NCBI RefSeq assembly: GCF_918797525.1
Contig: NZ_OU963893.1
Coordinates: forward strand, 868,001 to 932,000
Source of the DNA: an unidentified bacterial endosymbiont
GTDB lineage: Bacteria; Pseudomonadota; Gammaproteobacteria; Enterobacterales; Enterobacteriaceae
Direction of reading: 5' to 3'
Length of the DNA stretch: 64,000 nucleotides
The position numbers and the translations under genes are program-made. Below, one piece after another: positions 14,999 to 31,060 of this stretch; the first letter of the stretch is position 1, and the number at the start of each line of letters is the position of its first letter. The notes under the pieces were generated by a model that saw only the letters and a program-made list of their open reading frames with translations, was not told the DNA's origin and ran no database searches.

Positions 14999-15051
14999 TG
15001 CATGTTGTCGCCTGAGTAAAGTCGAAACCCTGGGACAGTGAGGGGTTAATC

Positions 15052-16116
15052 ATGATAAGCAAAAATGCGTCTTTATCGGTAATTGACAGAGAATTTGCCT
15101 TAAAGTCTGAAAATAAATTAGATACATTATTTCTTCAACTGATTGATAGTAATGATATTAACTCGATTCTTGAACTGCGGCCTCAGCTAACGCAGCAGTT
15201 AATGCGTCTGGCGTCACAAGCGAGTCTTGCTGCCTTTGAACATCACGATGACGAGGCGCTCCGCCAGGTCCATCAGACGCTTTTCTACGCTTACCACTCT
15301 CATCTTGCCGAGCCGCTCTCCTGTTCAAGCCGAAATCAGTACCATCCGGTATTGTTGCAGGTCCGTACTTTCCTGGAGTCGCAGTGGCTATATAGCGAAA
15401 AACGCCGCGCCAGAATGCACGCATTGTCGTTATCTGCCCAAAATATTATTGCCGAACTTCACCTGCTGTGGAAAAACCACGCAGTGTCATCGCATGCGTT
15501 GTTTGATTTTCTTGAGCATGAGGCCAATAGCCAGCAGCTTTACTATTTTTTCAAAAGCGACAGTGCGTTGAATTTATTGTTCTTCGATCTGGTGGCGATG
15601 ACCCTGGTGGGCTCTTTCCCTGAAACGCGGGGTGAAATAAGCCAGAATTTATGGGATGAGATTGGCCAGGGTAGTAATGAATTTACGCACGTAAATTTGT
15701 ATAAAGATTTACTCCATCGTCGCGGTATCGATCTGCCCGACGATCACTATACCCATCTGTATGACTGGCAGGGCCTGGCAGGCTATAACCTGTTTATGAT
15801 GGGAGGGGTCACACGCTGTCATTACTATAAACTGATTGGCATGATGGCGATGACGGAATTGCTCGACCCGTCGCAATATGAAAAGCTGGTTAACGGCAGC
15901 CGTCGTCTTGGCCTGTCGGCGCGAGATGTGCATTACTACAGCGAGCATATCTCTGTCGATGTCGATCACGCTGATGGCTGGCTTAACAACGTTATTGTTC
16001 CCGTCGCGCAGCGTTATCCTCAGGCGCTGGAGGAGATCTACTTTGGCGCCCGGTTACGTTTGCAAACCTGTCAGGACTATTACGACAATTTGCTCAAAAC
16101 GCTAAAGGCGTTGTAA
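15052..16116 (+). CDS. heme-oxygenase-fold di-iron oxidase (iron-containing redox enzyme family)
   Basis: 354 residues, with GAGGGG before ATG 15052. An N-terminal helical region (1-145) precedes a heme-oxygenase-like domain. Signature segments are DEIGQGSNEFTH (E203, H213) and HISVDVDH (H299, D303, H306), plus a candidate Glu at 269. This is the metal-ligand pattern of HDO enzymes such as UndA, BesC and SznF, which cleave or hydroxylate amino- and fatty-acid-type substrates with O2. The substrate is unknown. It is AT-rich compared with the genes after it and converges on the leftward enzyme operon. I infer it belongs to the cluster because the cluster encodes a second heme-oxygenase-fold protein. 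Confidence 0.85.
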   Translation: MISKNASLSVIDREFALKSENKLDTLFLQLIDSNDINSILELRPQLTQQLMRLASQASLAAFEHHDDEALRQVHQTLFYAYHSHLAEPLSCSSRNQYHPVLLQVRTFLESQWLYSEKRRARMHALSLSAQNIIAELHLLWKNHAVSSHALFDFLEHEANSQQLYYFFKSDSALNLLFFDLVAMTLVGSFPETRGEISQNLWDEIGQGSNEFTHVNLYKDLLHRRGIDLPDDHYTHLYDWQGLAGYNLFMMGGVTRCHYYKLIGMMAMTELLDPSQYEKLVNGSRRLGLSARDVHYYSEHISVDVDHADGWLNNVIVPVAQRYPQALEEIYFGARLRLQTCQDYYDNLLKTLKAL

Positions 16117-16122
16117 CACTCA

Positions 16123-16144
16123 TGCGCCGGGGTCGCCCGGCGCA
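16123..16144. terminator. bidirectional hairpin between HDO gene and nucleotidyltransferase gene
   Basis: TGCGCCGGG-GTCG-CCCGGCGCA is a perfect 9-bp GC-rich stem with a 4-nt loop, exactly in the 38-bp gap between the two convergent genes. It marks the 3' end of the leftward biosynthetic operon. Confidence 0.7.
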
Positions 16145-16154
16145 AGTGTATGTA

Positions 16155-17381
16155 TTATGGCTCCGGCTCGGGTGTCAAAGGGATAGGCGATGAGGCGAGA
16201 ACCGACTGTAAATACGCGATCTCTTCATCGCTGAAGACGCCCACGCCGCCCAGCAAGAAGGTGCCTGCTGGCGTCATTAGCAGCCTGTAACGCCCCTTTT
16301 TCACCTGCTGCAACGGCTGTGGATGGGGATTGATCAGAATGCCGTAAATCGGGATGGCGAACTGCATAGCCAGACCAATGGCCCAGGGTCTGTCGAAAAC
16401 ACCGAAGATCCGCAGCAAAACGTCGGCTTTCTGGCAGGCGCTATCGAGACCTTTTCGTAACCGATTACGCCAGCCAGCCGTGCCCGATGTCCCCCGCGTA
16501 CGGACCCTTTCCTCAAGCTGAACCAGCTCGTACGGAGGCGACTGGTCGAAGCGGACAAAGGCCGCAATCAGCTTTATGACCTGCTCGCCAAGGCCCGCAT
16601 TCGTCAGGGCCGTGGCCAGAGCGTTAAGTTGATCCTGGTCGGTGAGCGTCATGCACAGGCAGTAACCATCATAGAGATCCCGCAGCATGCACTCCGGGCG
16701 TGTAGCAAGCTCCATGAAAAATACGGTGAGCATCATCGGGGTATCTGGCACGCAGAGCGCAAGCTCCCCGAAGCGTTTTTCAGTGGCATGCGCGCGCAGC
16801 GCAAGCCAACTGAGCTGGAGGTTATCATCGACCGCAAACTGACCGATATGCAGCTCAACGCCGCCGTCTTCATTTCCCTCCCGATGGATAAAGCGGGCCA
16901 GCCCCTGCCAGCTTTTCAACTCCTTGCGCCATACCAACTGCGTCATAAAGGGCAAATGAAAGCCATTATTGAGCAACTGGGTGGCTATATGGCAGAAGGT
17001 AGTGAAATCAGCGACGACCACATCCAGGTCTTTTGCGAACCGATCCATTTTTTCAGGGTAGAGGATCTCATGACCAAAGCCCTTCATTAACATGGCGTTG
17101 GCGCTTTGGCTGAAAGGGGCGGCGAGCCGTAGCGCGGCAAGCCAGCTGGAACGCTCAAGCGCGTGGGTGTGCAACATCGTTTGATACTTTTCCGGCAGCG
17201 GCGAGGCCTGATACTGCTGGTAGAGCGCCGCGACGTGCGGCAGAATTTTATGCCTAACGGCGCGTTCAAGGCCGTGTTGCCACTGTTCCGCCGTCAAGGC
17301 TTGCGCCTGCTCGCCGGCATGCTGAGGATCAAACAAAAAACGGCATAACAGCCGATCGAGGGTAGCGTGCGTAGTTATCAT
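16155..17381 (-). CDS. PF14907-type nucleotidyltransferase family protein
   Basis: 408 residues. The segment LMKGFGHEILYPEKMDRFAKDLDVVV (about 97-122) matches the hallmark of the 'uncharacterised nucleotidyltransferase' family (K-G, YP, R..KDLD). Those acidic residues would bind metal-NTP. A histidine-rich strand (GGVELHIGQF) and C-terminal helices follow. Homologues occur beside RiPP genes, including some lasso-peptide clusters, and are thought to act on peptides or small products; the exact reaction is unknown. Its ATG overlaps the aminotransferase stop by 4 bases (ATGA), so it is translationally coupled as the last gene of the leftward operon. Confidence 0.8.
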   Translation of the reverse strand: MITTHATLDRLLCRFLFDPQHAGEQAQALTAEQWQHGLERAVRHKILPHVAALYQQYQASPLPEKYQTMLHTHALERSSWLAALRLAAPFSQSANAMLMKGFGHEILYPEKMDRFAKDLDVVVADFTTFCHIATQLLNNGFHLPFMTQLVWRKELKSWQGLARFIHREGNEDGGVELHIGQFAVDDNLQLSWLALRAHATEKRFGELALCVPDTPMMLTVFFMELATRPECMLRDLYDGYCLCMTLTDQDQLNALATALTNAGLGEQVIKLIAAFVRFDQSPPYELVQLEERVRTRGTSGTAGWRNRLRKGLDSACQKADVLLRIFGVFDRPWAIGLAMQFAIPIYGILINPHPQPLQQVKKGRYRLLMTPAGTFLLGGVGVFSDEEIAYLQSVLASSPIPLTPEPEP

Positions 17382-18451
17382 CGCGTGTGTTCCTTCAGGG
17401 CCTGTTCGAGGCGCTGCATTCTGCTGGCCTCCAGCGGGACGCTGAGGCGCAACAGGGTGGTAGAGGTATCGGCTTTCTGCCAGAAATGGTGCTGTTTTCC
17501 ACCAATCCCCAGTCTTCGCAGTGCGGGCTCTTCGCCTGAGGGGAGAAAAATATAGGGCATGGCTTCGCTGGAGGGGATCACCGGCCAGCCGGAAAATAGC
17601 CCGAGCGCGGCTTGTTTCTGCTCCTGGATTCGCGCTCGCAGCGCGAGGGTACTGTCTTTAGCCATCAGCAGAGCGTAGGTGATCCGCAGCGTTAATGACG
17701 GATTTAACAATGGCGGAATATGTTCCCGGAGTATGTTTCTGAGCGCCGGGGAGGAGAGACAAAATCCCATCCGCAGCCCGCCCAGCCCCCAGGCTTTTGA
17801 CATGCCGCGCAGTACGATGAGGTTTGGCAGACGGGCCAGCAGATGAACCGCGCTACAGGAGGGTGCAAGGTAGTTGGCATTGGATTCATCAATCAGCAGC
17901 CTGATGCCCGCGCTCGCCAGCGCGTCCCCCAGTTCATAAATGCTCTCAAGGGACGTGACTGCGCCCTGCATAAGCGCGGGGCGCTCCAGGAAATAGAGAT
18001 TGCTATCCAGGCTGCTGGCCTGCCGGACGCTTTCCGCCACCGTCGCGGATGAGATGCGTTCTGCGCGTCGCCCGGAGTGGGTTAACCACCAGGGAAAGTC
18101 CGGGTAAACCTCACTGGCGATGGCGACGTGCCGCCCGGCGCTCAGCGCGGGCAACGTGCTCAGCAGTTGAATGACTCCGGCTCCACAGGCCAGCGCAAAA
18201 TCCTTTTTCTGAATACCAAAATAGTGGGCGATGGCGGGCGCAAGGCGCTGTTCCCCCCAGGGGTCGTCAACGGCGTAATGCCAGGTCGCAGGTAGCAGAC
18301 CCTCAATTTCCTCCTGCAGGCTGCGCGTAATCAGGCCGTTCAGGGAGGGGGTAATAAAATCCCGCTCATCCTGCGTCCAGGCCAGATTTAACCGCTCGGG
18401 CGTATCATCAAGCTTAAGATGGCGGTAGGAATCAATCGCCCGGTTTAACAT
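17378..18451 (-). CDS. PLP-dependent class I/II aminotransferase (HisC/CobD-like)
   Basis: 357 residues from ATG 18451, which has GGAGG at 5 bases; ATG 18463 is a less likely alternative. Fold-type-I features are visible: ACGAGVIQLLS, LLIDESNANYLAP (the Asp that pairs with the PLP nitrogen) and GMSKAWGLGGLRMGF (Schiff-base Lys). Closest in feel to histidinol-phosphate aminotransferase or threonine-phosphate decarboxylase. It would transaminate or decarboxylate an amino-acid-like intermediate. It overlaps the phosphodiesterase stop by 7 bases and the next gene by 4. Confidence 0.85.
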   Translation of the reverse strand: MLNRAIDSYRHLKLDDTPERLNLAWTQDERDFITPSLNGLITRSLQEEIEGLLPATWHYAVDDPWGEQRLAPAIAHYFGIQKKDFALACGAGVIQLLSTLPALSAGRHVAIASEVYPDFPWWLTHSGRRAERISSATVAESVRQASSLDSNLYFLERPALMQGAVTSLESIYELGDALASAGIRLLIDESNANYLAPSCSAVHLLARLPNLIVLRGMSKAWGLGGLRMGFCLSSPALRNILREHIPPLLNPSLTLRITYALLMAKDSTLALRARIQEQKQAALGLFSGWPVIPSSEAMPYIFLPSGEEPALRRLGIGGKQHHFWQKADTSTTLLRLSVPLEASRMQRLEQALKEHTR

Positions 18452-19479
18452 TGCGCCTCCCATACGGCATAAAAGACGTCGAGTTCGTCCGGCTGGCGTG
18501 AGCCGTGTTCATACCGGTAGCCTGGCGGGGCGATAAACCGTTCACCACGCGCAATCAGGAACAGATTGCCCGCGCGGGCAGGCACATCATCCAGTTCTGC
18601 GGCGGGAATGACCTCGGCAAACTCTCCCAGGCGGTCGGTCAGGGCATGCTGGAATTCGGTGAGCCTGGTACCGGGAACATAGAACCAGCGCGTCAGCCCG
18701 GCCCCCCCCATGGTGGCATCGAACCTTTCGCACAGCAGGGCAATCTGTTGGGCTACCTGCTCGTCGTGAAGAACGGGCACCAGGCCATGATCGGAATGTG
18801 CGATGGTATCGTAGCCCCGCTGCGCCAGCCTGACGGCGAGCTCATCTATACCCTGCAGAAATGCCATAACGTAAGCGTCATAGCCCTGCGTATGGATGTA
18901 ATGATCGACATCGATAAATATCCAGACCAGGCTCGGGGTGGCTGCCCGCCGGAGCGCGCGCTCAATTGTGGTTTCCAGCGCGTTGAGAATGACCCAAACC
19001 GGCTGTGGCGGCGAAAGGGTAAAAAAAGCGGTTCGGTCGATAATTTCTGCGCCATCCAGTAATGCGCGCGTCCAGGCTCCTTCAATGGGGAGCAGATCGC
19101 CGATCGCGGCTTGCGGGAGATAACCGCAGCGGCGCGCGTCATGGAAAATGTTATCCGTAGGGATTGCCAGCGCTTCCCCCTGATACTGGCAGAGATTGAT
19201 AAGCGAATCCGGTTGGTGGTTGTGCCTGAACACGACGCCGGGAATACCGTGTTCTTTCACGCCGAGCCCGGTCAGGCTGCTGAGCCAGCCGGTGGTGGAG
19301 GTGGTGGGAAAAACCGCCTGCCAGCGTTCAATGACCGGCGTTTGCCACAGGGGGTCAACCCGTTTACCGGGGATGCCATCCAGGGCAAACACAATCTGGT
19401 GCGTGTTGCGCGACATGCGCGCCATTATGCGCTCACGAAATTGCCGCTGGCTTACGCGCGACGCTGCTTGTGCTGTCAT
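18445..19479 (-). CDS. type I phosphodiesterase / nucleotide pyrophosphatase-like (alkaline phosphatase superfamily)
   Basis: 344 residues, cytosolic by appearance (no signal peptide). Metal and nucleophile motifs of the NPP family are present: FALDGIPG, FPTTSTTGWLSSLTG (Thr nucleophile), IDVDHYIHTQG and HSDHGLVP. Such enzymes hydrolyse phosphodiester, phosphonate or pyrophosphate bonds. In this operon, next to a nucleotidyltransferase and a kinase-like protein, it could remove or rearrange a nucleotidyl or phosphoryl group on an intermediate. ATGA overlap with the upstream FAD gene. Confidence 0.85.
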   Translation of the reverse strand: MTAQAASRVSQRQFRERIMARMSRNTHQIVFALDGIPGKRVDPLWQTPVIERWQAVFPTTSTTGWLSSLTGLGVKEHGIPGVVFRHNHQPDSLINLCQYQGEALAIPTDNIFHDARRCGYLPQAAIGDLLPIEGAWTRALLDGAEIIDRTAFFTLSPPQPVWVILNALETTIERALRRAATPSLVWIFIDVDHYIHTQGYDAYVMAFLQGIDELAVRLAQRGYDTIAHSDHGLVPVLHDEQVAQQIALLCERFDATMGGAGLTRWFYVPGTRLTEFQHALTDRLGEFAEVIPAAELDDVPARAGNLFLIARGERFIAPPGYRYEHGSRQPDELDVFYAVWEAQC

Positions 19480-21602
19480 AGTCGCTCCGTTTCGGTTACC
19501 GGCTGCGTGCTTTCTGCCATCTGGGCCAGCAGATCGGTGGCCCAGTTATTGACGGCGCTGAGAATAGCGCTATTGGTGTCGGGACGTGCGGCTGCATTCT
19601 GGAAAAAACAGAGCCCTTCAGCCGGTGCCCCCAGAAACGTTAATCGCCTCTCAAAGTGGTTTTGGTCATCGACAGGATGAAAGTCGCGCGTGAGATCCAG
19701 GGCGCCGGGGATAAAGCGCGTCCCGTCTGCGCCACGATTTTCCCACAGGCGCGCCAGCCCGGCGGCGAGCAGGGAAGGGTAGAGAGGATTACGTTGCCGA
19801 CGCGCATCGAAGGGGTGTAAACGGGCGCAGCACAGGTGGTCTACCCGTTGCTGATAGTGCCGACCCGCGAGCCGGTAACCGCGAAGCGGGCCGCAAGCGC
19901 GGACGCGGGTTCCGCCAGGGGCGATCGTTACCCGTCCACAGGCAATCAGGCAGCCCAGCTTCTCCATGGCTTCTGTACCTGCGCCATTGGACAGGCGGTT
20001 ATAGTGGGAGAGCCAGTGGCGGATAAAATCCTGCTGCGAGGCGGGCGTCAGGCCGCCAAAATCGGTGGCTGCCGAGAAGACGGGGCGTAAATCGCGCCAG
20101 ACACCGTCGCAGGCGGCCTTCAGGGGGTTAGAGAGATTGCCCTGTGCGGCAAAGGCCAGATCGCGCGCCAGTGCGTCGAGTTGTTCCGCTTTGCCAGGCC
20201 GTTGCCTGCGCGCGCTGGGGTAAAAAATAGCCTGCCAGTCGAATTGATGGTGATAGATATTTTGGGCGTGACGCCATTTGATCTCCTCCCGGGTGAGCGC
20301 GCGCAGGCGCTCAATGGCCTGCTCCGGCGTGACAGATTCATCCGTCAGCGTGCAAACATACGCGGCTGCCGCCTCCTGAACGGCCTGGCCCGAGTGGACG
20401 GTGCCCTGACGGGCCAGGCTCAGCGCGTGTGCCATCTGACGAAAATGGTCGCCCCAGAGTGCCATCAGCGTGTCAACATCGTACCGGACGTCCGGGCCCG
20501 TATGCGTCAAAAACGCCTGATAATGTGGCGCCAGCGCCGCGCTGACGTTCTGCGCGAACCGCTCGCCGAACAGGGTCCGGTAATAGATCCACGCCATTTC
20601 CAGTACGATTAAGGGAAAAACATCCTGCCTGAAATCGAGCTGCCGACAGACGTTACCATCGCGCAGCACGGTCGACCGACCCCGGTGACGCCGCAGGGAA
20701 GCGATGGCCTGTTCACTAAAAAAGTGCGGGCGGTGCAGATCGTCGGCGGTTTTTTGATTGCGCGCCCGGGCGGTATAAAGCTGGCCGCTTCGGCTCAGGG
20801 CGATAATTTGCACCGGCTCATGGCCGCTGGCTTGATAACGCAAAGGACCCCGCGCCGTGCGAACAAAACGACCTCCCCGTCCCTCCGTCAAATGCAGGCA
20901 GATGTCGATGGCGGTGAGGCCCATACCGCTGAGGGCGATGCGGCTACCGGCGTCCACGCTGTCCAGTTGATCCAGCGGATAAGCGTATGACGTATAGGTT
21001 AAGCCGCGTTGATAACGCGCTTCAGCCGTTTGCCAGTGGGCGCGGCAAGGGGTATGTCCGGTCACAAAGAGCGCATAGTCGGCGCGCAAACCTGCCGGTA
21101 ACCCTGGGGTATGCAGCAGAAAAGCAGGGGGATCGCGCGTGACGCGCGTGACCTCTTCTGCATGCGTCGTTACCGTTATGCCGGGCAGGGCTCGCAGGGC
21201 GTCGGCGTAAGTATCGAAATAGTCGCGCAGCGCCAGGCCGTGTAAATAGCGATGCGGCATGTCATGGGGCTGTAAATCAAAACGGGCGTCGCCCGTCGCG
21301 TAAAAACGCTGACGACACCAGTGATAAAAGTTAAGGCGCAGCGACGCGGGAAGCAGGGCGTTTGCCATGCTGACGGACTCATCGGCGGCAAAGGCGATTT
21401 GATCGACCGGGCGGTTCAGATAGCAGCTTTTGCTCTGGCGATCGCTGTGCGCCATCCCTGCGCCAAAACGTCCTGTGTTATCAAAGATGTGAATCGAGAG
21501 CTGACGTACGGGCGGGCAGTTAGTCAAGAGCGCCAGCAGACGCTCCAGGGCGTACACTGCGCGCGGACCGCCGCCGACGATTGCCACCACCACGTTATCC
21601 AT
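19476..21602 (-). CDS. large FAD/NAD(P)-binding protein (PF13454-like)
   Basis: 708 residues. The N-terminus carries a Rossmann dinucleotide motif (VAIVGGGPRAVYALERLL) and FDNTGRFGAGMAHS. A second nucleotide-binding element (RIALSGMGLTAIDICLHLTEG) lies near residue 245. The rest is a long helical region. This pattern fits the FAD-NAD(P)-binding family (PF13454) of poorly known oxidoreductases related to flavin N-monooxygenases. It is the largest and most GC-rich gene of the cluster. GGAAGG precedes ATG 21602, and only 14 bases separate it from the gene upstream. Substrate unknown. Confidence 0.8.
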   Translation of the reverse strand: MDNVVVAIVGGGPRAVYALERLLALLTNCPPVRQLSIHIFDNTGRFGAGMAHSDRQSKSCYLNRPVDQIAFAADESVSMANALLPASLRLNFYHWCRQRFYATGDARFDLQPHDMPHRYLHGLALRDYFDTYADALRALPGITVTTHAEEVTRVTRDPPAFLLHTPGLPAGLRADYALFVTGHTPCRAHWQTAEARYQRGLTYTSYAYPLDQLDSVDAGSRIALSGMGLTAIDICLHLTEGRGGRFVRTARGPLRYQASGHEPVQIIALSRSGQLYTARARNQKTADDLHRPHFFSEQAIASLRRHRGRSTVLRDGNVCRQLDFRQDVFPLIVLEMAWIYYRTLFGERFAQNVSAALAPHYQAFLTHTGPDVRYDVDTLMALWGDHFRQMAHALSLARQGTVHSGQAVQEAAAAYVCTLTDESVTPEQAIERLRALTREEIKWRHAQNIYHHQFDWQAIFYPSARRQRPGKAEQLDALARDLAFAAQGNLSNPLKAACDGVWRDLRPVFSAATDFGGLTPASQQDFIRHWLSHYNRLSNGAGTEAMEKLGCLIACGRVTIAPGGTRVRACGPLRGYRLAGRHYQQRVDHLCCARLHPFDARRQRNPLYPSLLAAGLARLWENRGADGTRFIPGALDLTRDFHPVDDQNHFERRLTFLGAPAEGLCFFQNAAARPDTNSAILSAVNNWATDLLAQMAESTQPVTETERL

Positions 21603-21616
21603 ACGCTTACCTTCCG

Positions 21617-22549: not shown

Positions 22550-22577
22550 AACTGGCTCCTGATAAAATACTATTCTG

Positions 22578-23228
22578 TCAACGTGTGGGCTTGAAGGTGG
22601 CGGCGATAGCCTGGGTGATCGCCTGGAAAACCTCCGTCACGGGCTTCTTACCGTCGATTCGCGTCCAGTTTTGTTCCTGGCTCTGTCTGCGCAAAATACG
22701 GTGTACTTTGTTCATCTGCTCCAGGAAAAGGGCGTCGCTACAGTCGTGCTGGTTACCGCACTCGTAGGGGGCATGGGTTTCATCGTTTTGCCTGCGCCAG
22801 GTGAGGGTGGTGTCCGGATCGACGTCGAGGAATATCGTCAGGTCGGGTTTGGGGAAAATGCTGGTCAGGTTAGTCAACCATTGCTCATCAAGGCCCAGCG
22901 CCGTCTCGGTAGCGACATGTTTTTGCCAGCCGCCGTCCAGGATCACAATCTCATTGTCCTGAACCGGCTGGTGGCAAAGCGGGATGGCAAGCAGGTTAAA
23001 AATAAACAGCGCCCGGCTGGCTCCGCGCATATCCGGCACGATCTCGTACATCAGGGTGTGGTAGTCGCAGCCAAAATAGCGCGCTTCAGGGATGGCGGCG
23101 ATGTTGAGCGCATCCCTTTTTGAAAGGGATCGGACGGGCAGAGAATAGTGGGCTTCCAGCCAGGGGATGACCTGACGCAACTGGGTTGATTTACCGCTGC
23201 CGTCGCATCCCAACACATTAATTAACAT
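22578..23228 (-). CDS. thymidylate-kinase-like P-loop protein
   Basis: 216 residues. The P-loop GCDGSGKST (8-16), the central VILDGGWQKHVATET segment and the LDVDPDTTLTWRR motif follow dTMP kinases. The core gene tmk is not expected at this locus, so this is a specialised relative. Such tmk-like proteins accompany nucleotidyltransferases in some RiPP clusters. It may phosphorylate an intermediate rather than dTMP. GAGG lies 5 bases before ATG. Confidence 0.8.
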   Translation of the reverse strand: MLINVLGCDGSGKSTQLRQVIPWLEAHYSLPVRSLSKRDALNIAAIPEARYFGCDYHTLMYEIVPDMRGASRALFIFNLLAIPLCHQPVQDNEIVILDGGWQKHVATETALGLDEQWLTNLTSIFPKPDLTIFLDVDPDTTLTWRRQNDETHAPYECGNQHDCSDALFLEQMNKVHRILRRQSQEQNWTRIDGKKPVTEVFQAITQAIAATFKPTR

Positions 23229-23276
23229 AAAAACCTCAGGCTGATGTTGTCCCGGCGCGGTGCGCCGGGGCCGGGA

Positions 23277-24545
23277 TTAGTGCTGCGTGCGCAGAATGTC
23301 CTCTGCCTGCTCGTCCAGGCTGACGCCCTGGGCATCGTTGAGCATTTTTTTGAACTGATGCCGTAACGCCAGCGGGACCAGGCGCTCTACGTAAAAACCG
23401 AGCTGTTCATCCAGGTGGTACTCCACCGGGTCCTGTTCTGCCAGCAGGGAGAGCCCGCGAGCCATCTGCTCCGGAAAGCCCGGGTAGCCCGACTGCAGGG
23501 TATAAATGACGCTGTAGTACAGGTTGCGTCCCAGTGAGAAGCAGGGATAACGCGCTTCGTAGTTGTCGAGGGAGTATTTAGGGAAACAGCCGTCGATTAT
23601 CCGTTTTGGACACATCCACAGGGGCATGACCAGCGTCATATCGCCAATTTTGCGTGCGGGACTGGAGGCTGGTTTCAGGCCGGTCGTTACGCGATAGAGA
23701 TTTTCACACAGCACATCTTCGAGATTCAGGCCGGTGCTGATGTAGGTGGTATTTAACTCGCGCGCATAGCGGGTCAGAGAGAGGCGAATCAGCAACGTGC
23801 CGAGAAACTCAAAATCGTCGCCGACAAAATGCCGCTCAAAGCGGTCGATAAGGCTTTCTCCGTCTGACGGGATACCCAGCAGAGATTTCACTTCCGTTTC
23901 GTCAAAGACCTTAAGGTCAAGCTGGTATTTTTCACACAACGCTTTGGCGCGCGGCACGCCTTTATCCCAGTCCGGGATCCCCATAATGATGACGGGATGA
24001 ACGTGCACATAGTCGCGGATCAGGCTCAGACCGTGCAGCATAGCGTTACTGTCACCGCCGCCGCTGACGCCCACCACAAGGTGCGCCCCTTTCGGCAAAT
24101 TCTCTTTAATGGTATCTGCAACCCGCTGGGCAATAATCGACTGGCACTCTTCCGGCGTCAGTTTTTTCAGATAACTTTGGGCGCTGGCGTCGCTGTTTTG
24201 TAAATCCTGATAGATGTATTCCGTTGACTGTTGCTCGTCCTCTGACGCCGGGACGATGCGAAAATTTTCAGGCGAGAATTTAAAAGGATTAACGTTGCGA
24301 TTGAAGTAAAGCAACAGTTCATCAGCGTTAAACTCAGACATTCTCTTTTCCAGGCCGGAGCAGAGGTGCAGCGTTTCGTCATCTTCATTACGCTGATAAA
24401 TAGAGACCGCCGACCATGGAACGTTATTGCGGTTGAGGACGTCAATTAAGCGTTCATCTTTATTACTGATAAGCTGCTGGCGTCCGTGTGCCGTGACAAC
24501 AGAGATGGCAGGTCCCTCTGTATTTAAAGATAACTTTGCTGACAT
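23277..24545 (-). CDS. PP-loop ATP pyrophosphatase (TilS/AsnB-like adenylating enzyme)
   Basis: 422 residues from ATG 24545 (MSAKLSLN; GAGG upstream); ATG 24560 is an alternative. The PP-loop SGGGDSN at about 161-167 (VVGVSGGGDSNAMLHGL) marks an N-type ATP pyrophosphatase, a fold that activates a carboxyl or carbonyl as adenylate before amidation, lysidination or thiolation. A 95-residue N-terminal domain of short strands (AISVVTAHGRQQLIS) precedes it; it could be ubiquitin-like, but I cannot assign it. It is the first enzyme gene after the 69-residue peptide gene and so the best candidate for the first modification of that peptide. Confidence 0.82.
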   Translation of the reverse strand: MSAKLSLNTEGPAISVVTAHGRQQLISNKDERLIDVLNRNNVPWSAVSIYQRNEDDETLHLCSGLEKRMSEFNADELLLYFNRNVNPFKFSPENFRIVPASEDEQQSTEYIYQDLQNSDASAQSYLKKLTPEECQSIIAQRVADTIKENLPKGAHLVVGVSGGGDSNAMLHGLSLIRDYVHVHPVIIMGIPDWDKGVPRAKALCEKYQLDLKVFDETEVKSLLGIPSDGESLIDRFERHFVGDDFEFLGTLLIRLSLTRYARELNTTYISTGLNLEDVLCENLYRVTTGLKPASSPARKIGDMTLVMPLWMCPKRIIDGCFPKYSLDNYEARYPCFSLGRNLYYSVIYTLQSGYPGFPEQMARGLSLLAEQDPVEYHLDEQLGFYVERLVPLALRHQFKKMLNDAQGVSLDEQAEDILRTQH

Positions 24546-24625
24546 TGCATCACCTCGCATTACCCTGAAGAGTAAGTCGTTATAGGATTATTAGATTATT
24601 GGTTAAAGATGTGTGGTTAAAGTAA

Positions 24626-24645
24626 GGCCACACGGGAATGTGGCC
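24626..24645 (-). terminator. hairpin between the 69-residue peptide gene and the first enzyme gene
   Basis: GGCCACA and TGTGGCC pair around a 6-nt loop, 9 bases past the peptide stop codon on the leftward transcript. No long T-tract follows, so it would act as a partial terminator or mRNA stabiliser, letting the peptide gene be made in excess over the enzymes. Confidence 0.65.
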
Positions 24646-24654
24646 CTGGTTTTT

Positions 24655-24864
24655 TTACTGTGCGCCGGTTTCGCAGCTGGCACCGCAAATAGTTTCAATT
24701 CCGTGTCGGGAAGCCGGAATAAATGCGCGGTTAGCACGCATTGATTCCAGCTCGCTGACGGACAGGTCTGCATACTGCTGGTGCGCGCCGTGTACGATCA
24801 GATTTACAGCTTCATTTTTCAGGTTGAAATTATTGCTTGGATTCTGTTTTAAAGCAGTTTTCAT
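24655..24864 (-). CDS. 69-residue candidate precursor peptide
   Basis: The reading frame from ATG 24864 (GAGG 8 bases upstream) encodes 69 residues beginning MKTALKQNPSNNFNLKNEAV. It is rich in N, Q, A and E and has no hydrophobic membrane segment. The last 20 residues hold two cysteines in ICGASCETGAQ, preceded by IPASRHGIET. A leader-like N-terminus, a distinct Cys/Gly/Ser/Thr C-terminus, first position in an operon of enzymes and a hairpin directly after the gene are features of RiPP precursors. I know no homologue. It could also be a small regulatory or carrier protein. Confidence 0.6.
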   Translation of the reverse strand: MKTALKQNPSNNFNLKNEAVNLIVHGAHQQYADLSVSELESMRANRAFIPASRHGIETICGASCETGAQ

Positions 24865-24945
24865 TCTCACATCCTCATTTGAAAGTGGAATACCCGTTAA
24901 GCTACATATGAGAAACAATCATTAAACATTTACGTAGCAAGGATA

Positions 24946-24973
24946 GTTATATCCCTGTCGAATACTTTGTCAA
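24946..24973 (-). promoter_or_regulatory. sigma-70 promoter of the leftward enzyme operon
   Basis: On the minus strand TTGACA (24973-24968) and TATAAC (24951-24946) are separated by 16 bases, a near-consensus promoter. Transcription would begin about 24939, giving a 75-base leader before the 69-residue peptide gene. Confidence 0.75.
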
Positions 24974-24985
24974 GCAGGAATGTTA

Positions 24986-25060
24986 CTGATGGGTATCGCT
25001 GTTTTGTCTTTGGTGGTGGCGCGAGAATGGCGGTGTGTTGCCTTTTCTGATGCTGTATCG
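24986..25060. repeat. pair of direct repeats in the divergent control region
   Basis: CTGATGGGTATCG (24986-24998) and CTGATGCTGTATCG (25047-25060) share CTGATG and TATCG with 2- or 3-base spacers, and each is followed by a T-rich stretch. They lie between the two promoters and could bind one regulator. Confidence 0.35.
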
Positions 25061-25102
25061 TTTTTTCAGGTATTTGTGGTGATACTAGTTGGTAACTTTT
25101 GT

Positions 25103-25131
25103 TTGACAATTGTTATCGGTGTGATAAGACT
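25103..25131 (+). promoter_or_regulatory. promoter of the rightward operon with overlapping inverted repeat
   Basis: A perfect TTGACA at 25103-25108 is followed by candidate -10 hexamers (TAAGAC at 25125 with 16-base spacing is the best). TTATC-GGTGT-GATAA, an inverted repeat at 25113-25127, covers the spacer and could be an operator. The -10 is weak, which suggests dependence on an activator or tight control. Confidence 0.55.
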
Positions 25132-25139
25132 AAACTCCT

Positions 25140-25165
25140 GTTCATTCTCAAAACCGCGAATGAAC
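25140..25165 (+). other. 5'-UTR hairpin of the rightward operon
   Basis: GTTCATTC and GAATGAAC form a perfect 8-bp stem with a 10-nt loop at the expected 5' end of the transcript, 45 bases before the 16-codon gene. A terminal stem-loop of this kind can protect an mRNA from decay; a role in attenuation is also possible. Confidence 0.55.
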
Positions 25166-25209
25166 GGAACGTAATGCATAAACCTGAATATCTTTTAAGG
25201 AGAGTCGTT

Positions 25210-25260
25210 ATGAATACGAAGAAACTGAAAAAAGTACGTCGTGGTAGTGCAGCGTTGTAA
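25210..25260 (+). CDS. 16-residue candidate precursor or leader peptide
   Basis: ATG 25210 opens a 17-codon frame encoding MNTKKLKKVRRGSAAL, with an excellent AAGGAGAG ribosome-binding site 5 bases upstream. It is strongly basic (KK, KK, RR) and ends in GSAAL. It is followed 15 bases later by a 12-bp hairpin and then by the oxidase gene. This is the layout of mccA (microcin C) and of pqqA: a tiny substrate gene made in excess. A leader peptide for transcription attenuation is the main alternative, since repeated Lys and Arg codons precede a terminator-like hairpin. It is far below usual gene-calling limits. Confidence 0.6.
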   Translation: MNTKKLKKVRRGSAAL

Positions 25261-25275
25261 TCGTTAATAACGCGG

Positions 25276-25305
25276 ATTAGTGGCACAGGGATTTGTGCCA
25301 TTAAT
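25276..25305 (+). terminator. attenuating hairpin after the 16-residue peptide gene
   Basis: ATTAGTGGCACA and TGTGCCATTAAT form a 12-bp stem (one G-T pair) with a 6-nt loop, followed by a U-rich but interrupted tract. It lies between the peptide gene and the oxidase gene. It is expected to reduce read-through without abolishing it. Confidence 0.7.
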
Positions 25306-25349
25306 TATTACTAAATCTTATCGTTGTTGCCTTTCATTAGGGGCTGCTG

Positions 25350-26303
25350 ATGATCTATTTACCCTCCGATGTAAAAATACAAGTCCGTGGTCATACATTT
25401 TTATTCTGTGTTTTCGAGCAGGTATTCGAAATAAGTTTCGATGATGAAATACAATATATCGCGGCACGACAGTTAGCAGATGCGTTAGTCAATAATGGGC
25501 GAGCCGAGCGTGATGAAACCCCTTTTTGTGAATATCTCCTGGAAAACAACCTTGTTTTTGAACATACCGGTGATTTTGCTCCCGTCAGTGAACTGGGGAG
25601 CACCGGAAATGCGTTTTATAACCGTTTGTTTAATATCGTCAATAATCAGTGGTTGTTGGAACGAGGTGAAACCCCGCTGGCGCTGGCGCTGCTGGAGCCT
25701 GAAAAGCACCGAGTTCTGCTGCTGGGCTGGACGCTGGAATATTTCCACGTTACCCGGCTGGCCATTACCTCGCTGATTGGGATATTGGGGCACAATTTCT
25801 CGCCGGCGCTCGCCGCGCTGGCCCGGGATTTTGTCAAAGAAGAGCTGTTCCATGAACGTATCATGGCTAAAGCTTTCCTTGATACGCCCTGGGATGAAGC
25901 CCAGGTGTTTGCCTCGCGCCCGCTTCCTTCAACGCAAGCCTATATGGATTTTCTTAAGGACATTGCCTTTCGTCGTCCTCACTCGTTTTTTGCCAGCCTG
26001 TTTTTCTATGAAGGTGATGACGAAGATATGCTGATGTTCTCCGAGCGCATTCCCGATATTCCCGGTTTTCGCCGGATACGTGACAGCCATCTGGCGCATG
26101 CGCGTATTAATGTTCAGGGCGATCATGCCGATTTTTCACGCCACTACTTCTCGCAAATCTCGTTGCTAACCGACGAACAACAAAACGAAATTCTGGATGA
26201 TATGGCGTATCTCAATTTCCTGTTTTACGACATGCAGGATGAAATTTATACGTTTTATCGTGATGAACAGGCGGTGGAGGAGCGGCTATGTATCAATCAA
26301 TGA
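25350..26303 (+). CDS. heme-oxygenase/PqqC-fold oxidase with RRE-like N-terminal domain
   Basis: 317 residues; AGGGG lies 6 bases before ATG 25350. Residues 1-75 (VKIQVRGHTFLFCVFEQVFEIS, then IAARQLADALVNNG and CEYLLENNLVFEH) have the strand-strand-strand-helix-helix pattern of PqqD-like RiPP recognition elements, an inference from pattern only. Residues 110-310 are a TenA/PqqC/heme-oxygenase-like helical domain with LEYFHVT (E130, H133), KEELFHER (E164/E165, H168) and HARINVQGDH (H250, D258, H259). The domain would bind metal or cofactor and oxidise a substrate held by the N-terminal domain, possibly the 16-residue peptide encoded just upstream. Confidence 0.78.
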   Translation: MIYLPSDVKIQVRGHTFLFCVFEQVFEISFDDEIQYIAARQLADALVNNGRAERDETPFCEYLLENNLVFEHTGDFAPVSELGSTGNAFYNRLFNIVNNQWLLERGETPLALALLEPEKHRVLLLGWTLEYFHVTRLAITSLIGILGHNFSPALAALARDFVKEELFHERIMAKAFLDTPWDEAQVFASRPLPSTQAYMDFLKDIAFRRPHSFFASLFFYEGDDEDMLMFSERIPDIPGFRRIRDSHLAHARINVQGDHADFSRHYFSQISLLTDEQQNEILDDMAYLNFLFYDMQDEIYTFYRDEQAVEERLCINQ

Positions 26304-26626
26304 TGTTTCAGATGATAAGCCTTGGCATTGCAATAAACGCCGAGCCACTGGTCGATTTGCGCGGCGTGTGGAAAAGAATGACGCTGCAGGATGGCATCGA
26401 AACGCCGCTGAATTTTCAGCAGCGGGCGATTGTCACCCGCGGGCGGATCGCCATGCTCGACGGCGAGGGACGCTTTTTTGCCTTTTTGCACACGGTCTGC
26501 CAGTCACTCCCCGACTCGCCCTGGCGGCATGAGGTGAGCGAATTACTCGGACAGGCGGATTTACCGGTGTTTATGGAAGATCGCGCGTTTGTTGCGCACT
26601 TTATGAAGGATAGCACCGCGTCATGA
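26288..26626 (+). CDS. 112-residue protein of unknown function
   Basis: GGAGG sits 7 bases before ATG 26288. The frame overlaps the oxidase gene by 16 bases and the MFS gene by 4, so it is a genuine, translationally coupled operon member. Visible text: LNFQQRAIVTRGRIAMLDGEGRFFAFLHTVCQSLPDSPW and ELLGQADLPVFMEDRAFVAHFM. No transmembrane segment or signal peptide is seen, and I recognise no family. Its size and position would suit a small partner of the oxidase or an immunity or binding protein. Confidence 0.75.
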   Translation: MYQSMMFQMISLGIAINAEPLVDLRGVWKRMTLQDGIETPLNFQQRAIVTRGRIAMLDGEGRFFAFLHTVCQSLPDSPWRHEVSELLGQADLPVFMEDRAFVAHFMKDSTAS

Positions 26627-27795
26627 CCCTGTTGATAATCATTGCCATGCTGAAAGCAGTTGCCGAGAAAATCAGTAACTTTATTTTGCCGTTATGGGCC
26701 TTTCAGCAGACTCAGTCCAACGATTTGATGAGCTATGTACGCATGTTTGAATACCTGCCTTTTATGGTATTAGGGTTCATTATTGGCGCGCTGGTGGACA
26801 GAGTGGGCAGTCGACGTGGTTTTACGCTAGGAACGCTGGGGCAGACGGCGGTGCTGGTGGTGCTGGCCTGGCACGGCGCGCCATCACCGCACCTGCTTTT
26901 CCTGCTGGTGTTCGTCCTGATGGGAATGACCTATTTCGCAAATAACGCGCTCATTGTACAGTCCCGCGCTGCTTTGCCTGATAACCGACTGATCGCTTAC
27001 AACCGCTATACCAACATGGTGACCAACATCATGGAAAGCGCAGGGCCTGCCATAATCGGCGCCCTGCTGCTGCTGTTGAGTTATACCCAGGCGCTGCATT
27101 TTTCCTGGGTGCTGCTGTCTGTCGCCCTGTTGCTAGGGGTTATGACCTTCAGACGTCCACCAGTAAGCGAGAAAAAACCGTTTATCCCCGATGTGATTTA
27201 CGGCTTTCGTGCCCTCTACCGCCTGCGCAATCTTTGGGTTTTATCGTGGTGGACGGCCTTTGCCAATGCCGTGATTGTCGTCTCTGAAGTGGTGGTGATG
27301 TATTGTGCAAAATCGACATTTGCCTTCAGCGATTTTCAGGTTGGAGTACTTTTTGCGATCGGTGGGCTGGGCGCAATCAGCGGCTCATGGTTGTCGGAGT
27401 ATATCGAGCAACGCGTGGGTGTGATGCGGGTGCTGGCCTACAGTATTCCCCTGATTGGGCTTGCCTATCTTTTCACCAGTCTTCATGTCACCCCTGTTAC
27501 GCTAGGCGCAATGCTGTTTTGTGAATCTTTCCTTTTCTCACTCTACATCGTCTGCGTTCGAACCTACAGGCTGGTGGTGGCCCCGGCGGGCGATCTCGGC
27601 AAAATTAACGGCATCACCGGCAGCATCTTCAAAATGTTTATCCCCATTTCGCTGACGCTGTATGCCCTGTGGGGCAATCAGGTCCCGACAGGCGCGGTGT
27701 TGGGGATAATGGGGGCGCTGTTCGTCTCGGGTTCGATAGCATTAGTGGCTTCCAGCGTGCTCAGGATGCAGGAAAAATTGTCGGATAATTACTGA
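26623..27795 (+). CDS. MFS efflux transporter (MFS_3 / EntS-like)
   Basis: 390 residues with 10-12 hydrophobic segments. The loop after TM2 (GALVDRVGSRRGFTLG) is the MFS signature D-R-x-G-R-R, and YNRYTNMVTNIMESAGPAIIGALLL fits the MFS_3 exporter family that includes EntS. It is the only transporter in the cluster and most likely exports the product, giving self-protection if the product is toxic. ATGA overlap with the upstream gene. Confidence 0.88.
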   Translation: MTLLIIIAMLKAVAEKISNFILPLWAFQQTQSNDLMSYVRMFEYLPFMVLGFIIGALVDRVGSRRGFTLGTLGQTAVLVVLAWHGAPSPHLLFLLVFVLMGMTYFANNALIVQSRAALPDNRLIAYNRYTNMVTNIMESAGPAIIGALLLLLSYTQALHFSWVLLSVALLLGVMTFRRPPVSEKKPFIPDVIYGFRALYRLRNLWVLSWWTAFANAVIVVSEVVVMYCAKSTFAFSDFQVGVLFAIGGLGAISGSWLSEYIEQRVGVMRVLAYSIPLIGLAYLFTSLHVTPVTLGAMLFCESFLFSLYIVCVRTYRLVVAPAGDLGKINGITGSIFKMFIPISLTLYALWGNQVPTGAVLGIMGALFVSGSIALVASSVLRMQEKLSDNY

Positions 27796-27809
27796 CCACG
27801 AGGCGAAGC

Positions 27810-29447
27810 ATGACGCAGAAATGGCTTGAGTGGGCGTTGAGTGCAAGTAATGAAACAGAGATGCTCGACGTTATTTATAAGCTTGGCGAGTTCGACCGGT
27901 ATCAGGCTTCTCAGGGCATTCTGGCCGCGGCGAGGTTTGTCTCCCGGGCAGCAAAAGAGGGCGGGATGGGCGATGTCGTTATTCATCCTTTCACGGCCGA
28001 TGGCTCCCGCTGCTGGTGGGATTTCCAGGCGCCGATAGCCTGGACGCCGGTAAAGGCGACGCTGTCTCTGCTTCATCCGCCCTGCGTGCTGAACCACCAG
28101 AGCGAACCCTATACGTTAGCCACCTATTCCGCAGCGGCGTGCGGACTGTATCCCTTGGTCTTTCTTGATGAGGTTAATGACCTCAGCGGGAAAATTGTCC
28201 TTATCCCTGCGGCGCAGTATCAGCCTGCTGGTCTGCTGGCGCGCCTCAAGCAGCGCGGCGCTGTGGGGTTTGTTACCGATGCGTTTGCCCGTTTTGACCC
28301 TGACAGCGGCCGTTTTTGGCGTGGGCGTCTGGAGTTGCCGCCCGGCTGCGAACTCTTTGCCTTTAGCGTGCTTCCTCAGGAGCTGCGAAACCTGGCTGAC
28401 GGCGAAACAGAGGCGCACGTTGAGATCGTGATTGATGATAAGGCGACCATGCCCGTGGTGAGCGCGTCGATCCCCGGTATGCCAGAGGAACGGGAGATCT
28501 GGGTAACGGCCCACCTGTGCCATTCGCGCGCCGGCGCGAACGATAATGCATCCGGGGTGAGCGCCTCGCTTGAGGTGGCGAAACTGGCGCAGCGTTGGGT
28601 GAAAATGTCCGGGACGCTGCGTTATCCCCTTCGCTTTATCTGGGGGCCTGAATTTCTGGGCGTGGCAGCGATGCAGCATAAAAGACGTCATCTGCCCGGA
28701 CCGATTGCGGTCATTAACCTGGACATGGTGGGCGAAGATCCAGAACGTTGCGGATCGCCAATGTGCGTTGAGCTTCCCCCGGCCCGGCTAGCCTCTCCGC
28801 TGGGGGAGATGGCTAAAACGCTTATGCAGACGGTTTTTGCCCTGACAGCCGGGTATCCCGGCTCCTGGCTGTGCATGCCTTTCCACGGGTTTTCCGATCA
28901 CGCGCTGTTTATGAACCACAGCGATGCGCAGCGCAACTGCCCGGCGGTACAGCTTTGCCACATCAACGACCGGTTCAACCATACGGCGGCAGATTTGCCG
29001 GATAAAGTCTCTGCGACAGAGATGAAGCGCACGGTCGCCGTGACGCTGGCGCTGATTATGCAACTACAGGCGTTGGAACCAGAGCAAATTATGCCTCCCC
29101 GCCAGGCGCTTGCTCCTGAGCACGGCGGCGTGACGGGGCGCTGGGCGGGGCCGCTAAATCTCAGGGGGCTTATCCAGCAGTTGCACAACCCACTGCGACA
29201 GTCGATTGAGACGTTGATTGCACGGGACAAACGCTACCTGGCGCTTTTGCACCTTTGTGCGATTGGCGCAGACGGACGCCAGCGGGAAGCGCTGGTACGG
29301 GAATCAGCTAATACGATAGGGCTGACGCTCTCTGACGAGGCGGCGGTAGCGCTCTTCGCTCTCTTTGAGGCGTCTGCGTATTTTCAGGTCTGCACAGCAG
29401 GTCATATTCCGGGGGACGAACCATATGGATCCACAACAGCTCTTTGA
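27810..29447 (+). CDS. M28-type zinc aminopeptidase (DUF4910-like)
   Basis: 545 residues. A PA-like insert (about 95-195) is followed by a metallopeptidase core with putative di-zinc ligands H235/H238 (TAHLCHSRAGANDNASG), D245, E281 (GPEFLG), D305 (NLDMVGED) and H391 (DRFNHT). A C-terminal helical domain completes it. There is no signal peptide, so it acts in the cytosol. In this setting it may trim the leader from a modified peptide before export. GAGGCG precedes ATG 27810, 14 bases after the MFS gene. Confidence 0.82.
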   Translation: MTQKWLEWALSASNETEMLDVIYKLGEFDRYQASQGILAAARFVSRAAKEGGMGDVVIHPFTADGSRCWWDFQAPIAWTPVKATLSLLHPPCVLNHQSEPYTLATYSAAACGLYPLVFLDEVNDLSGKIVLIPAAQYQPAGLLARLKQRGAVGFVTDAFARFDPDSGRFWRGRLELPPGCELFAFSVLPQELRNLADGETEAHVEIVIDDKATMPVVSASIPGMPEEREIWVTAHLCHSRAGANDNASGVSASLEVAKLAQRWVKMSGTLRYPLRFIWGPEFLGVAAMQHKRRHLPGPIAVINLDMVGEDPERCGSPMCVELPPARLASPLGEMAKTLMQTVFALTAGYPGSWLCMPFHGFSDHALFMNHSDAQRNCPAVQLCHINDRFNHTAADLPDKVSATEMKRTVAVTLALIMQLQALEPEQIMPPRQALAPEHGGVTGRWAGPLNLRGLIQQLHNPLRQSIETLIARDKRYLALLHLCAIGADGRQREALVRESANTIGLTLSDEAAVALFALFEASAYFQVCTAGHIPGDEPYGSTTAL

Positions 29448-29631
29448 ATGGTGTATCGCGAAAGAGAATATCGACGTGCCGCCAGCCTGGCGTGCGGGTA
29501 CGTTACAGTGCGTTATCGACCTTCGTCATGCCGTGGCGCAGATTAGCGCCTGCCGTTTTGATCAGACTGAACCTGCAAACGGCTTTTTCCCTGAGAATAT
29601 CGTCCACCATTATGAGGCAATCCGTGAGTAA
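29425..29631 (+). CDS. AtzG/GatC-like small amidase partner (DUF4089-like)
   Basis: 68 residues from ATG 29425 with GGGGGA upstream. It overlaps the peptidase gene by 23 bases and the amidase gene by 8. The sequence (DPQQLFEWCIAKENIDVPPAWRAGTLQCVIDL, then ENIVHHYEAIRE) resembles the small helical AtzG/GatC-like subunits that wrap around amidase-signature enzymes such as AtzE. Likely obligate partner of the next protein. Confidence 0.75.
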   Translation: MDPQQLFEWCIAKENIDVPPAWRAGTLQCVIDLRHAVAQISACRFDQTEPANGFFPENIVHHYEAIRE

Positions 29632-31060
29632 GGCCCTTCATCTTCTTCCCCTGGCCGAGTTGGCGCGGCTGTTGCAGCAGAAGTTACTCACTTCGGTGGC
29701 GTTGACGGAGCATTTTCTGCAACGCATTGATCGCTTCAACCCAACCCTGAACGCATTTATACAGGTAGACAGAGACCGGGCTTATCGCGACGCACGCCGC
29801 GCCGATGACATACTGGCTAAGGGAACACACGGCAGTCCATTAACAGGCATACCTTACGCGCTAAAGGATATTTTTGACGTTGAAAGCGAGCCAACGACCT
29901 GCCATTCGCATTTGATGTTGCAGCATCGTGCCGCGCGAAGCAGTACCGTGGCATCCCGTCTGGCGGCCTCCGGCGCAGTCTATTTGGGCAAACTGGCGAC
30001 GCATGAGTTTGCGCTGGGGGGCCCCAGTGACGAGCTGCCTTTTCCTCCGGCACGTAACCCCTGGAATACGGCGCATTTTACCGGAGCATCTTCCTCGGGG
30101 GCGGGGGCTGCAGTCGCCGCTGGGCTGGTGCCCATCGCCCTCGGTTCAGATACCAGCGGATCCATTCGCGGTCCGGCCTGTTTATGCGGCGTGGTTGGGT
30201 TTAAGCCCACCTATGGGGTTGTCTCCCGGGCGGGGGTGTTTCCCCTTTCGTGGACGCTGGATCATTGTGGGCCGTTAACGCGCTTCAGCGATGATACCCG
30301 CCGGGTTTTACAGGCGATTGCCGGATATGATCCGGCCGATCCGACGACGGTCACCCGTAAACTGGATTTGTCTCCCCGCGCTGTAACATGGCCCAGCCAC
30401 CGCATAGCCTGGCCACGGCATCTGTTAACGGATAACCCCCATACCGACCCGGCGTTGATTGCCGCAATGGATCGGGCTGTCGGTTTTCTGACTGAGGCGG
30501 GAGCACGGGTCGAAGAGGTGAGATTTAGGGACTTTTCGCTGTTTAACGCGTGTGGTCGCATTATCATGGCTGCAGAGTCTTTTGCTGTCCATCAGCACAA
30601 CCTGCGCGAACGAGGGGCTGAATATGGTCGCTTCACCTTTCAGCGGATCCTCCCCGGCGCGACAATTTCGGCGGCAGAGTTGCTGGATGCGTTACGCTTA
30701 CGTACAGCGCTGACGGGCTGGCTGAACGCTGAGTTATTTCCGCGTTACTCCCTGCTGCTCTTTCCCGGCACGCTGCGGGCCGCGCCGCACTTCAATGAAT
30801 TCTCGCAGGACTGGCCCCCGGCCAGCCATGTGGTGCCGACGCAGACCATCCCCTTTAACGTGACGGGGAATCCTGCTCTGAGCTTGCCGTTGGGGCTGAC
30901 GGAGGCAGGATTACCCTTGGGTCTGCAGCTTGTTGGCAGACTGTTTGATGACAGCCTCGTGCTGGACGCGGGCGAGGCGATGGAGAAGTGGCTCGCCATG
31001 CCCGCGCTGAGCGACGACGTTATGCTGCGCCCGCACAGGGTGGTGCCCGTCACCGGATGA
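29624..31060 (+). CDS. amidase-signature hydrolase (AtzE/GatA-like)
   Basis: 478 residues from GTG 29624 (GAGG 6 bases upstream); ATG 29612 is an alternative. The amidase-signature triad is visible: Lys in IPYALKDIFDV, the Ser-rich GASSSGAGAAVAAGLVP and the nucleophile region GSDTSGSIRGPACLCGVVGFKP. Substrate-side residues diverge from GatA. With its AtzG-like partner it would hydrolyse an amide or carbamoyl-type bond, perhaps in the final tailoring of the cluster product. It ends the rightward operon; no clear terminator follows. Confidence 0.85.
   Translation: MSKALHLLPLAELARLLQQKLLTSVALTEHFLQRIDRFNPTLNAFIQVDRDRAYRDARRADDILAKGTHGSPLTGIPYALKDIFDVESEPTTCHSHLMLQHRAARSSTVASRLAASGAVYLGKLATHEFALGGPSDELPFPPARNPWNTAHFTGASSSGAGAAVAAGLVPIALGSDTSGSIRGPACLCGVVGFKPTYGVVSRAGVFPLSWTLDHCGPLTRFSDDTRRVLQAIAGYDPADPTTVTRKLDLSPRAVTWPSHRIAWPRHLLTDNPHTDPALIAAMDRAVGFLTEAGARVEEVRFRDFSLFNACGRIIMAAESFAVHQHNLRERGAEYGRFTFQRILPGATISAAELLDALRLRTALTGWLNAELFPRYSLLLFPGTLRAAPHFNEFSQDWPPASHVVPTQTIPFNVTGNPALSLPLGLTEAGLPLGLQLVGRLFDDSLVLDAGEAMEKWLAMPALSDDVMLRPHRVVPVTG

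Follow-up and report, generated by a model that had tools for sequence, protein, structure and literature searches.

The window is a stretch of 64,000 nucleotides from the genome of a bacterial endosymbiont of the Enterobacteriaceae (contig NZ_OU963893.1, positions 868,001 to 932,000, forward strand). At 15052–31060 it carries a gene cluster that contains a 69-residue peptide gene (pepA) and an adjoining PP-loop ATPase gene (H). We compared five loci that hold a close homolog of H (at least 56% identity), all of which also hold pepA: the window itself, Pantoea sp. Mb-10 (L002), a Lysobacteraceae assembly (L003), a Sulfitobacter assembly (L004) and a Pantoea agglomerans plasmid (L005). The features of the window are given below, with the occurrence of genes among these loci.

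13411..32105 (about 13.4–32.1 kb), no strand: island flanked by a conserved gene and a tRNA(CAT) gene; two same-genus genomes do not have it
15052..16116, plus: A, heme-oxygenase-fold oxidase related to the lysine N-oxygenase HrmI; 2/5 loci
16155..17381, minus: B, PF14907 nucleotidyltransferase; matched by Pfam in the window, L003 and L005 and by BLAST in L002
17378..18463, minus: C, CobD/HisC-like pyridoxal phosphate (PLP) enzyme; 5/5 loci
18445..19479, minus: D, type I phosphodiesterase/NPP family protein; 5/5 loci
19476..21602, minus: E, flavin adenine dinucleotide (FAD) protein related to the L-aspartate N-hydroxylase 8CP2; 5/5 loci
21617..22549, minus: F, isolated triosephosphate-isomerase (TIM) barrel of the phosphoenolpyruvate (PEP) synthase type; 3/5 loci
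22578..23228, minus: G, thymidylate-kinase-like P-loop kinase; 3/5 loci
23277..24560, minus: H, PP-loop ATPase with an extra N-terminal domain and a TtuA/TilS-like predicted fold
24624..24647, minus: hairpin 3' of pepA; on the plus strand also a terminator-like site at 24626–24645
24655..24864, minus: pepA, 69-residue predicted precursor/scaffold peptide; leader with an NFNLK motif, tail GIETICGASCETGAQ
25210..25260, plus: pepB, 16-codon open reading frame (ORF) MNTKKLKKVRRGSAAL with an AAGGAG ribosome site; precursor or leader peptide
25275..25306, plus: 14-bp hairpin 3' of pepB; DNA identical in Pantoea sp. Mb-10
25350..26303, plus: I, N-terminal domain resembling a recognition element (RRE-like) fused to a heme-oxygenase-fold domain
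26288..26626, plus: J, 112-residue protein without assigned function; 2/5 loci
26623..27795, plus: K, predicted major facilitator superfamily (MFS) exporter; 2/5 loci
27810..29447, plus: L, M28-type peptidase with its metal-binding stretches kept; 5/5 loci
29425..29631, plus: 68-residue ORF, AtzG-like by position alone
29444..31060, plus: M, amidase-signature amidase; 5/5 loci

The cluster is real, and it is most likely one pathway. A sequence-only reading of the window had named these enzymes, and Pfam, profile searches and fold models bear out the names at or near the positions claimed; Pfam recognised Haem_oxygenas_2 (15052–16116), NTP_transf_5, aminotransferase I/II, type I phosphodiesterase, NAD_binding_9, PEP-utilizers_C, thymidylate kinase, MFS_1, M28 and amidase. 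The same reading saw overlapping gene junctions, which stand for E/D (−4 bases), D/C (−19), C/B (−4), I/J (−16) and J/K (−4) and fall away for H/G, G/F, F/E and K/L, where gaps of 48, 28, 14 and 14 bases separate the genes. Its AtzG/AtzE-type amidase matches the amidase family; the start of M probably lies near 29612 rather than 29444, and the 68-residue ORF is likely the small partner.

That the genes work together, as had been proposed, agrees with their order elsewhere. L005 carries the genes for the PP-loop enzyme, kinase, PEP barrel, FAD protein, phosphodiesterase, PLP enzyme, M28 peptidase, small ORF and amidase in a run on one strand, and in L003 a single strand holds pepA, H, E, M, C and L; because genes of both window operons run together in these two loci, the alternative of two separate catabolic operons is unlikely. 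E, D, C, L and M form the constant set, with catalytic-residue stretches kept throughout. By BLAST, A, pepB, J and K occur in the window and L002, while F and G are shared by the window, L002 and L005; L005 has an MFS gene of its own without a BLAST match to K, and a luciferase-like flavoenzyme adjoins the gene set in L003 and L005. We interpret the island, with a probability of roughly 55%, as a new peptide-scaffold pathway, of the kind that yields ribosomally synthesised and post-translationally modified peptides (RiPPs), leading to a small, probably N-oxygenated, exported molecule. Of the earlier claim of a cluster for a probable peptide-derived natural product, the peptide part stands, pepA being conserved beside the enzymes in 5/5 loci; the natural product itself, and the reactions leading to it, are inferred.

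A profile search found 322 homologs of pepA, 120 of them listed, with source names that include Serratia, Dickeya, Pectobacterium, Vibrio, Lysobacter, Burkholderia, Streptomyces and Nocardiopsis; residue counts refer to these 120. Counted from the C-terminus, S-7, C-6, E-5, G-3, A-2, G-9, E-13, S-18 and A-19 are identical in 120/120, position -10 is Cys in 111 and Thr in 9, and the last residue is Gln in 101, His in 14 and another residue in 5. Compared with the Pantoea plasmid copy over 69 codons, pepA shows 26 synonymous and 19 non-synonymous changes, but 9 and 0 over the last 15 codons; compared with L002 the counts are 13 and 5 for the full length and 3 and 0 for the final 15 codons. With no non-synonymous changes in the tail, it is the protein sequence that is kept. 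The gene lies directly before H in 5/5 loci, and for 32 of the 120 listed pepA homologs the longest contig of the source has the same length as that of one of the 120 listed H homologs (jittered control: mean 0.5, maximum 4). Thus pepA shows what is generally expected of a RiPP precursor, a conserved short gene beside modifying enzymes in 5/5 loci with selection on the tail codons, and the prediction that the peptide is retained alongside the enzymes is upheld for it. That hundreds of homologous peptides from Gram-negative and actinobacterial hosts carry almost the same tail suggests a shared product or building block.

Rather than a substrate, pepA could be a small subunit of H that regulates it or acts as its chaperone, a role for which conservation over its whole length might speak (25/69 positions identical across five aligned sequences, among them N12, F13, L15 and K16, and not in the tail only). 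We think this very unlikely, since the peptide has a RiPP-like build, with a variable middle and, right at its C-terminal end, a Cys and a Glu that are conserved; since genes for a peptidase and an amidase accompany it in 5/5 loci; and since at a distant PP-loop locus the corresponding place is taken by another, different short peptide. A lanthipeptide ancestry, raised by the likeness of the tail to a stretch of nisin, finds no support among the enzymes. Among viral contigs, 81 matches to the pepA pattern gave 0 confirmed cases.

The neighbouring enzyme H was recognised weakly as a PP-loop protein by Pfam (E 0.034) and clearly by profile and predicted fold. Its best profile and fold matches are the tRNA thiolases NcsA and TtuA, with TilS nearly as close in fold, and in its predicted structure it answers the description of a TtuA/TtcA sulfurtransferase as a PP-loop protein of TtuA fold. 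H might therefore be a peptide thiolase that, by TtuA/NcsA-like chemistry, puts sulfur in place of an oxygen in the pepA tail, either in the backbone or in a carboxyl group, giving a thio-amino acid or a metal-binding compound; consistent with this, six cysteines of H are kept in 118–121 of 121 sequences, and the tail Cys is invariant among the listed pepA homologs. However, the sequence of H contains no CxxC pair, which in TtuA/TtcA binds the iron-sulfur cluster, the cluster proteins scanned gave no match to a sulfur carrier or a desulfurase, and the fold of TilS is nearly as close. We consider thiolation unlikely. Two distant PP-loop proteins were also seen beside short ORFs. On a Xenorhabdus plasmid (9768–12426 of locus L006), a PP-loop protein of 31% identity follows a 56-residue peptide ending GDICGGSTRVVSG and is followed by an MFS gene, an arrangement amid transposase genes that is a possible minimal version of the system. 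On a Geobacillus plasmid (3917–9205 of locus L029), a PP-loop protein of 23% identity has a 47-residue ORF upstream, and a methyltransferase, a nucleoside-phosphorylase-family protein and an MFS gene are present.

The window copy of E keeps the equivalents of R13, N62, R266, R409, R412 and R577 of the aspartate N-hydroxylase; among its orthologs, L003 lacks R13 and L004 has Lys for R577. In I, an AlphaFold2 model places three strands and two helices at residues 8–65, an RRE-like arrangement, ahead of a heme-oxygenase fold, and its fold matches include PqqC and a PqqCD fusion; the RRE-like/heme-oxygenase-fold assignment, which Pfam did not make, is supported by the model. Besides the window's own, I has 10 database homologs, 6 of which agree with a listed pepA homolog in the length of the longest contig of the source; the Vibrio ruber entries for H, pepA and I bear consecutive tags in their source names (19005, 19010 and 19015). 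A close homolog of I is present in 2/5 loci (window and L002). The oxidase part of I also has four distant matches in the L003 genome (23–28% identity), of which one shares its contig with H and lies some 15 kb from where H ends.

F keeps, in 3/3 copies, the substrate and metal stretches YRF[IV]DAPANE, GLRGMRR, ETPAA and GMNDL aligned with PEP synthase, and in 3/3 it has Ala in place of the SICGQ cysteine, the proton donor of the dikinases. L003 and L004, the loci without F and G, have an enolase and proteins like nucleoside diphosphate kinase in the neighbourhood; the L003 enolase sits within the gene run, with C and L on either side, and both enolases keep their catalytic stretches (by eye, against known enolase motifs). 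Each is the only enolase found in its assembly, the completeness of which is not stated. Among ten neighbours scanned in L004 there was no NTP_transf_5 match. Downstream of the cluster on a Lysobacteraceae contig (9606–15437 of locus L021), we observed a second NTP_transf_5 protein, an ATP-binding-cassette exporter with a C39 peptidase, an HlyD protein and a heme-oxygenase-fold protein, a stretch that looks like a second peptide cluster.

These enolases raise the question of whether the product is an antimetabolite for the PEP site of enolase, N-oxygenated and phosphorus-bearing like SF2312 (a phosphonate enolase inhibitor), with the in-cluster enolase of relatives as a resistant copy. The presence of enolase genes near the cluster in 2/5 loci, and the joint occurrence of N-oxygenase relatives and phosphate enzymes, are in keeping with this. 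On the other hand, the window cluster, L002 and L005 showed no enolase, and the single enolase of the window genome lies away from the cluster; the second enolase of genome G790 is in another operon, beside what we take to be CrcB-like and phosphoglycerate-mutase-like genes and not near the cluster. An enolase may also simply supply PEP, and none of the cluster proteins scanned matched a PEP mutase. We regard this product as distinctly unlikely. A combined proposal, in which a tRNA-thiolase-like PP-loop enzyme would prime an SCETGA carrier tail for an N-oxygenated, phosphorus-bearing PEP antimetabolite aimed at enolase, the whole forming an unrecognised cross-phylum class of ribosomal-peptide chemistry, is a speculation to which we give a low chance.

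For the peptide-scaffold pathway that we favour, the following scheme can be proposed. The pepA peptide would carry a small amino-acid-derived molecule during its assembly on the S-C-E-[T/I]-G-A tail. H would prime it, using ATP to adenylate a tail carbonyl, either of the invariant Glu or of the C-terminal carboxylate, and would then couple a building block to the tail, as TilS couples lysine. E would oxidise the nitrogen of an acidic amino acid and, in the window lineage, A another amine; B, D, F and G may add or process a phosphate-, PEP- or nucleotide-linked part, and the substrate of C may be an amino acid that is acidic or phosphorylated. I, with its RRE-like domain, would contribute a further oxidation, guided by pepA or pepB, in the versions found in enteric bacteria and Vibrio. 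L and M would cut the finished residue free and K would export the product. If correct, this would add a new priming enzyme, a PP-loop protein of tRNA-modification ancestry, to peptide-scaffold biosynthesis, and the tail motif together with the PP-loop gene would provide a simple handle for genome mining.

A number of observations weigh against this scheme: firstly, the last residue of pepA varies, so ligation at the C-terminus fits less well than modification at Cys or Glu; secondly, H resembles sulfurtransferases too and might thiolate rather than ligate; thirdly, in 5/5 orthologs E no longer has the R276, N413 and R416 that line the aspartate entry chamber, so free aspartate may not be its substrate and another acidic compound is likely; fourthly, the cluster proteins scanned include no CreD/FzmL-type nitrosuccinate lyase; fifthly, BLAST gives no match to F or G in L003 or L004, and their roles are therefore not constant. 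Moreover, H and pepA are among the most conserved parts of the loci, yet in L005 F is more conserved (79% identity) than either (72% each).

Known systems share parts of this design. PQQ, the product of the pathway of PqqA, PqqC and PqqD, is a small molecule for which a ribosomal peptide serves as scaffold; that pathway has a heme-oxygenase-fold enzyme with an RRE-type domain, which the RRE-like fusion I resembles, and, like pepA, a peptide with a conserved Glu. The window cluster has no radical SAM match among its proteins, a different peptide, different oxidases and a PP-loop enzyme. TtuA/NcsA thiolases and TilS share the fold and PP-loop of H; H differs in its extra N-terminal domain, in having no CxxC and in the place of its gene beside a peptide gene. 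In pearlins (3-thiaglutamate, ammosamides), a ribosomal peptide is the scaffold for small amino-acid products, which are assembled at its C-terminus and freed by proteolysis (PMC9303977, PMC9016710). The window cluster differs in having a PP-loop enzyme beside the peptide and a tail nearly fixed across phyla. The LanB-type peptide aminoacyl-tRNA ligase of pearlins had no Pfam match among the 13 main cluster proteins, to which this search was confined, and we therefore do not file the cluster as a pearlin. The fosfazinomycin/kinamycin N-N cassette also joins a relative of the aspartate N-hydroxylase to an amidase; unlike it, the window cluster has no match among its proteins to the glutamine-synthetase-like FzmN or to the lyase, and has a ribosomal peptide instead of free glutamate.

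The class-defining enzymes of lanthipeptide, YcaO, radical-SAM and lasso pathways were likewise absent from those 13 proteins, in agreement with the sequence-only reading. Its view that the cluster matches no known pathway also holds as far as we searched: no published description appeared among the literature matches listed, a search that left most subscription papers outside and that covered, among others, PMC10404684, PMC6133997, PMC13108848, PMC13302981 and PMC12406949. The strings CETGAQ, SCETGA and CGASCET did not occur in the literature text searched, and ICGASC occurred once, in a paper on a fungus.

The second small ORF, pepB, fared less well. Retention had been expected of both peptides, but pepB is found only in the window and L002, the two loci with a close homolog of I, so that its role as a precursor is weakly supported. 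Its DNA is identical in L002 through the ribosome site and the non-coding hairpin, and on these two grounds we give an attenuator leader, with Lys/Arg codons and a hairpin controlling the right operon, even odds with a second precursor; the hairpin has no long U run, and the RRE-like domain of I, of a type that binds peptides in known pathways, speaks for the precursor. The proposal that each operon begins with a promoter, a tiny peptide gene and a hairpin before the enzymes holds for peptide ORFs and hairpins: the folds of the two hairpin-containing stretches are modestly more stable than those of shuffled sequence (z −1.99 and −2.20), and terminator-like sites number 3 against a shuffle mean of 1.0. 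Promoter-like sites do not exceed chance (1 found versus a mean of 2.3 in shuffles). The control region also contains, at 25140–25165, a perfect 8-base inverted repeat, GTTCATTC-N10-GAATGAAC, partly echoed at 24860–24883, which may be an operator.

The island interrupts the core gene order, as had been claimed: the left and right flanking genes, which by eye we take to be aer, yqjI and yqjH and mug, rpoD and dnaG, adjoin without it in 2/6 same-genus sites compared, where window positions 13410 and 32106 are only about 110 and 200 bases apart; in the remaining 4/6 the retrieved stretch did not extend to the left flank. The island is bounded by the tRNA(CAT) gene (32106–32181, minus strand), which seems to be a frequent insertion place in relatives, with a 47-base tRNA repeat in genome G020; elsewhere in the window the tRNA end finds no match longer than 10 bases. 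If this is the minor isoleucine tRNA, it is itself a TilS substrate, and its position near the TilS-like H is presumably a coincidence.

H is absent from 59 same-genus genomes searched besides its own, and full-length H is rare among species representatives. In overlapping draws of whole genomes, its own genome was the sole match among 99, among 198 and among 61 from the genus of G790; draws of 398, 394 and 392 each added one weak partial match (E 4.6e-4 to 8.9e-4), and a draw of 247 one distant relative (33%). A search of E. coli genomes and plasmids for near-identical DNA gave no match. Left of the cluster, within the island, lie an O-methyltransferase and a TetR regulator (13419–14861), and outside the cluster the window contains a flavin mononucleotide (FMN) riboswitch at 48774–48923 (plus strand, 119.7 bits).
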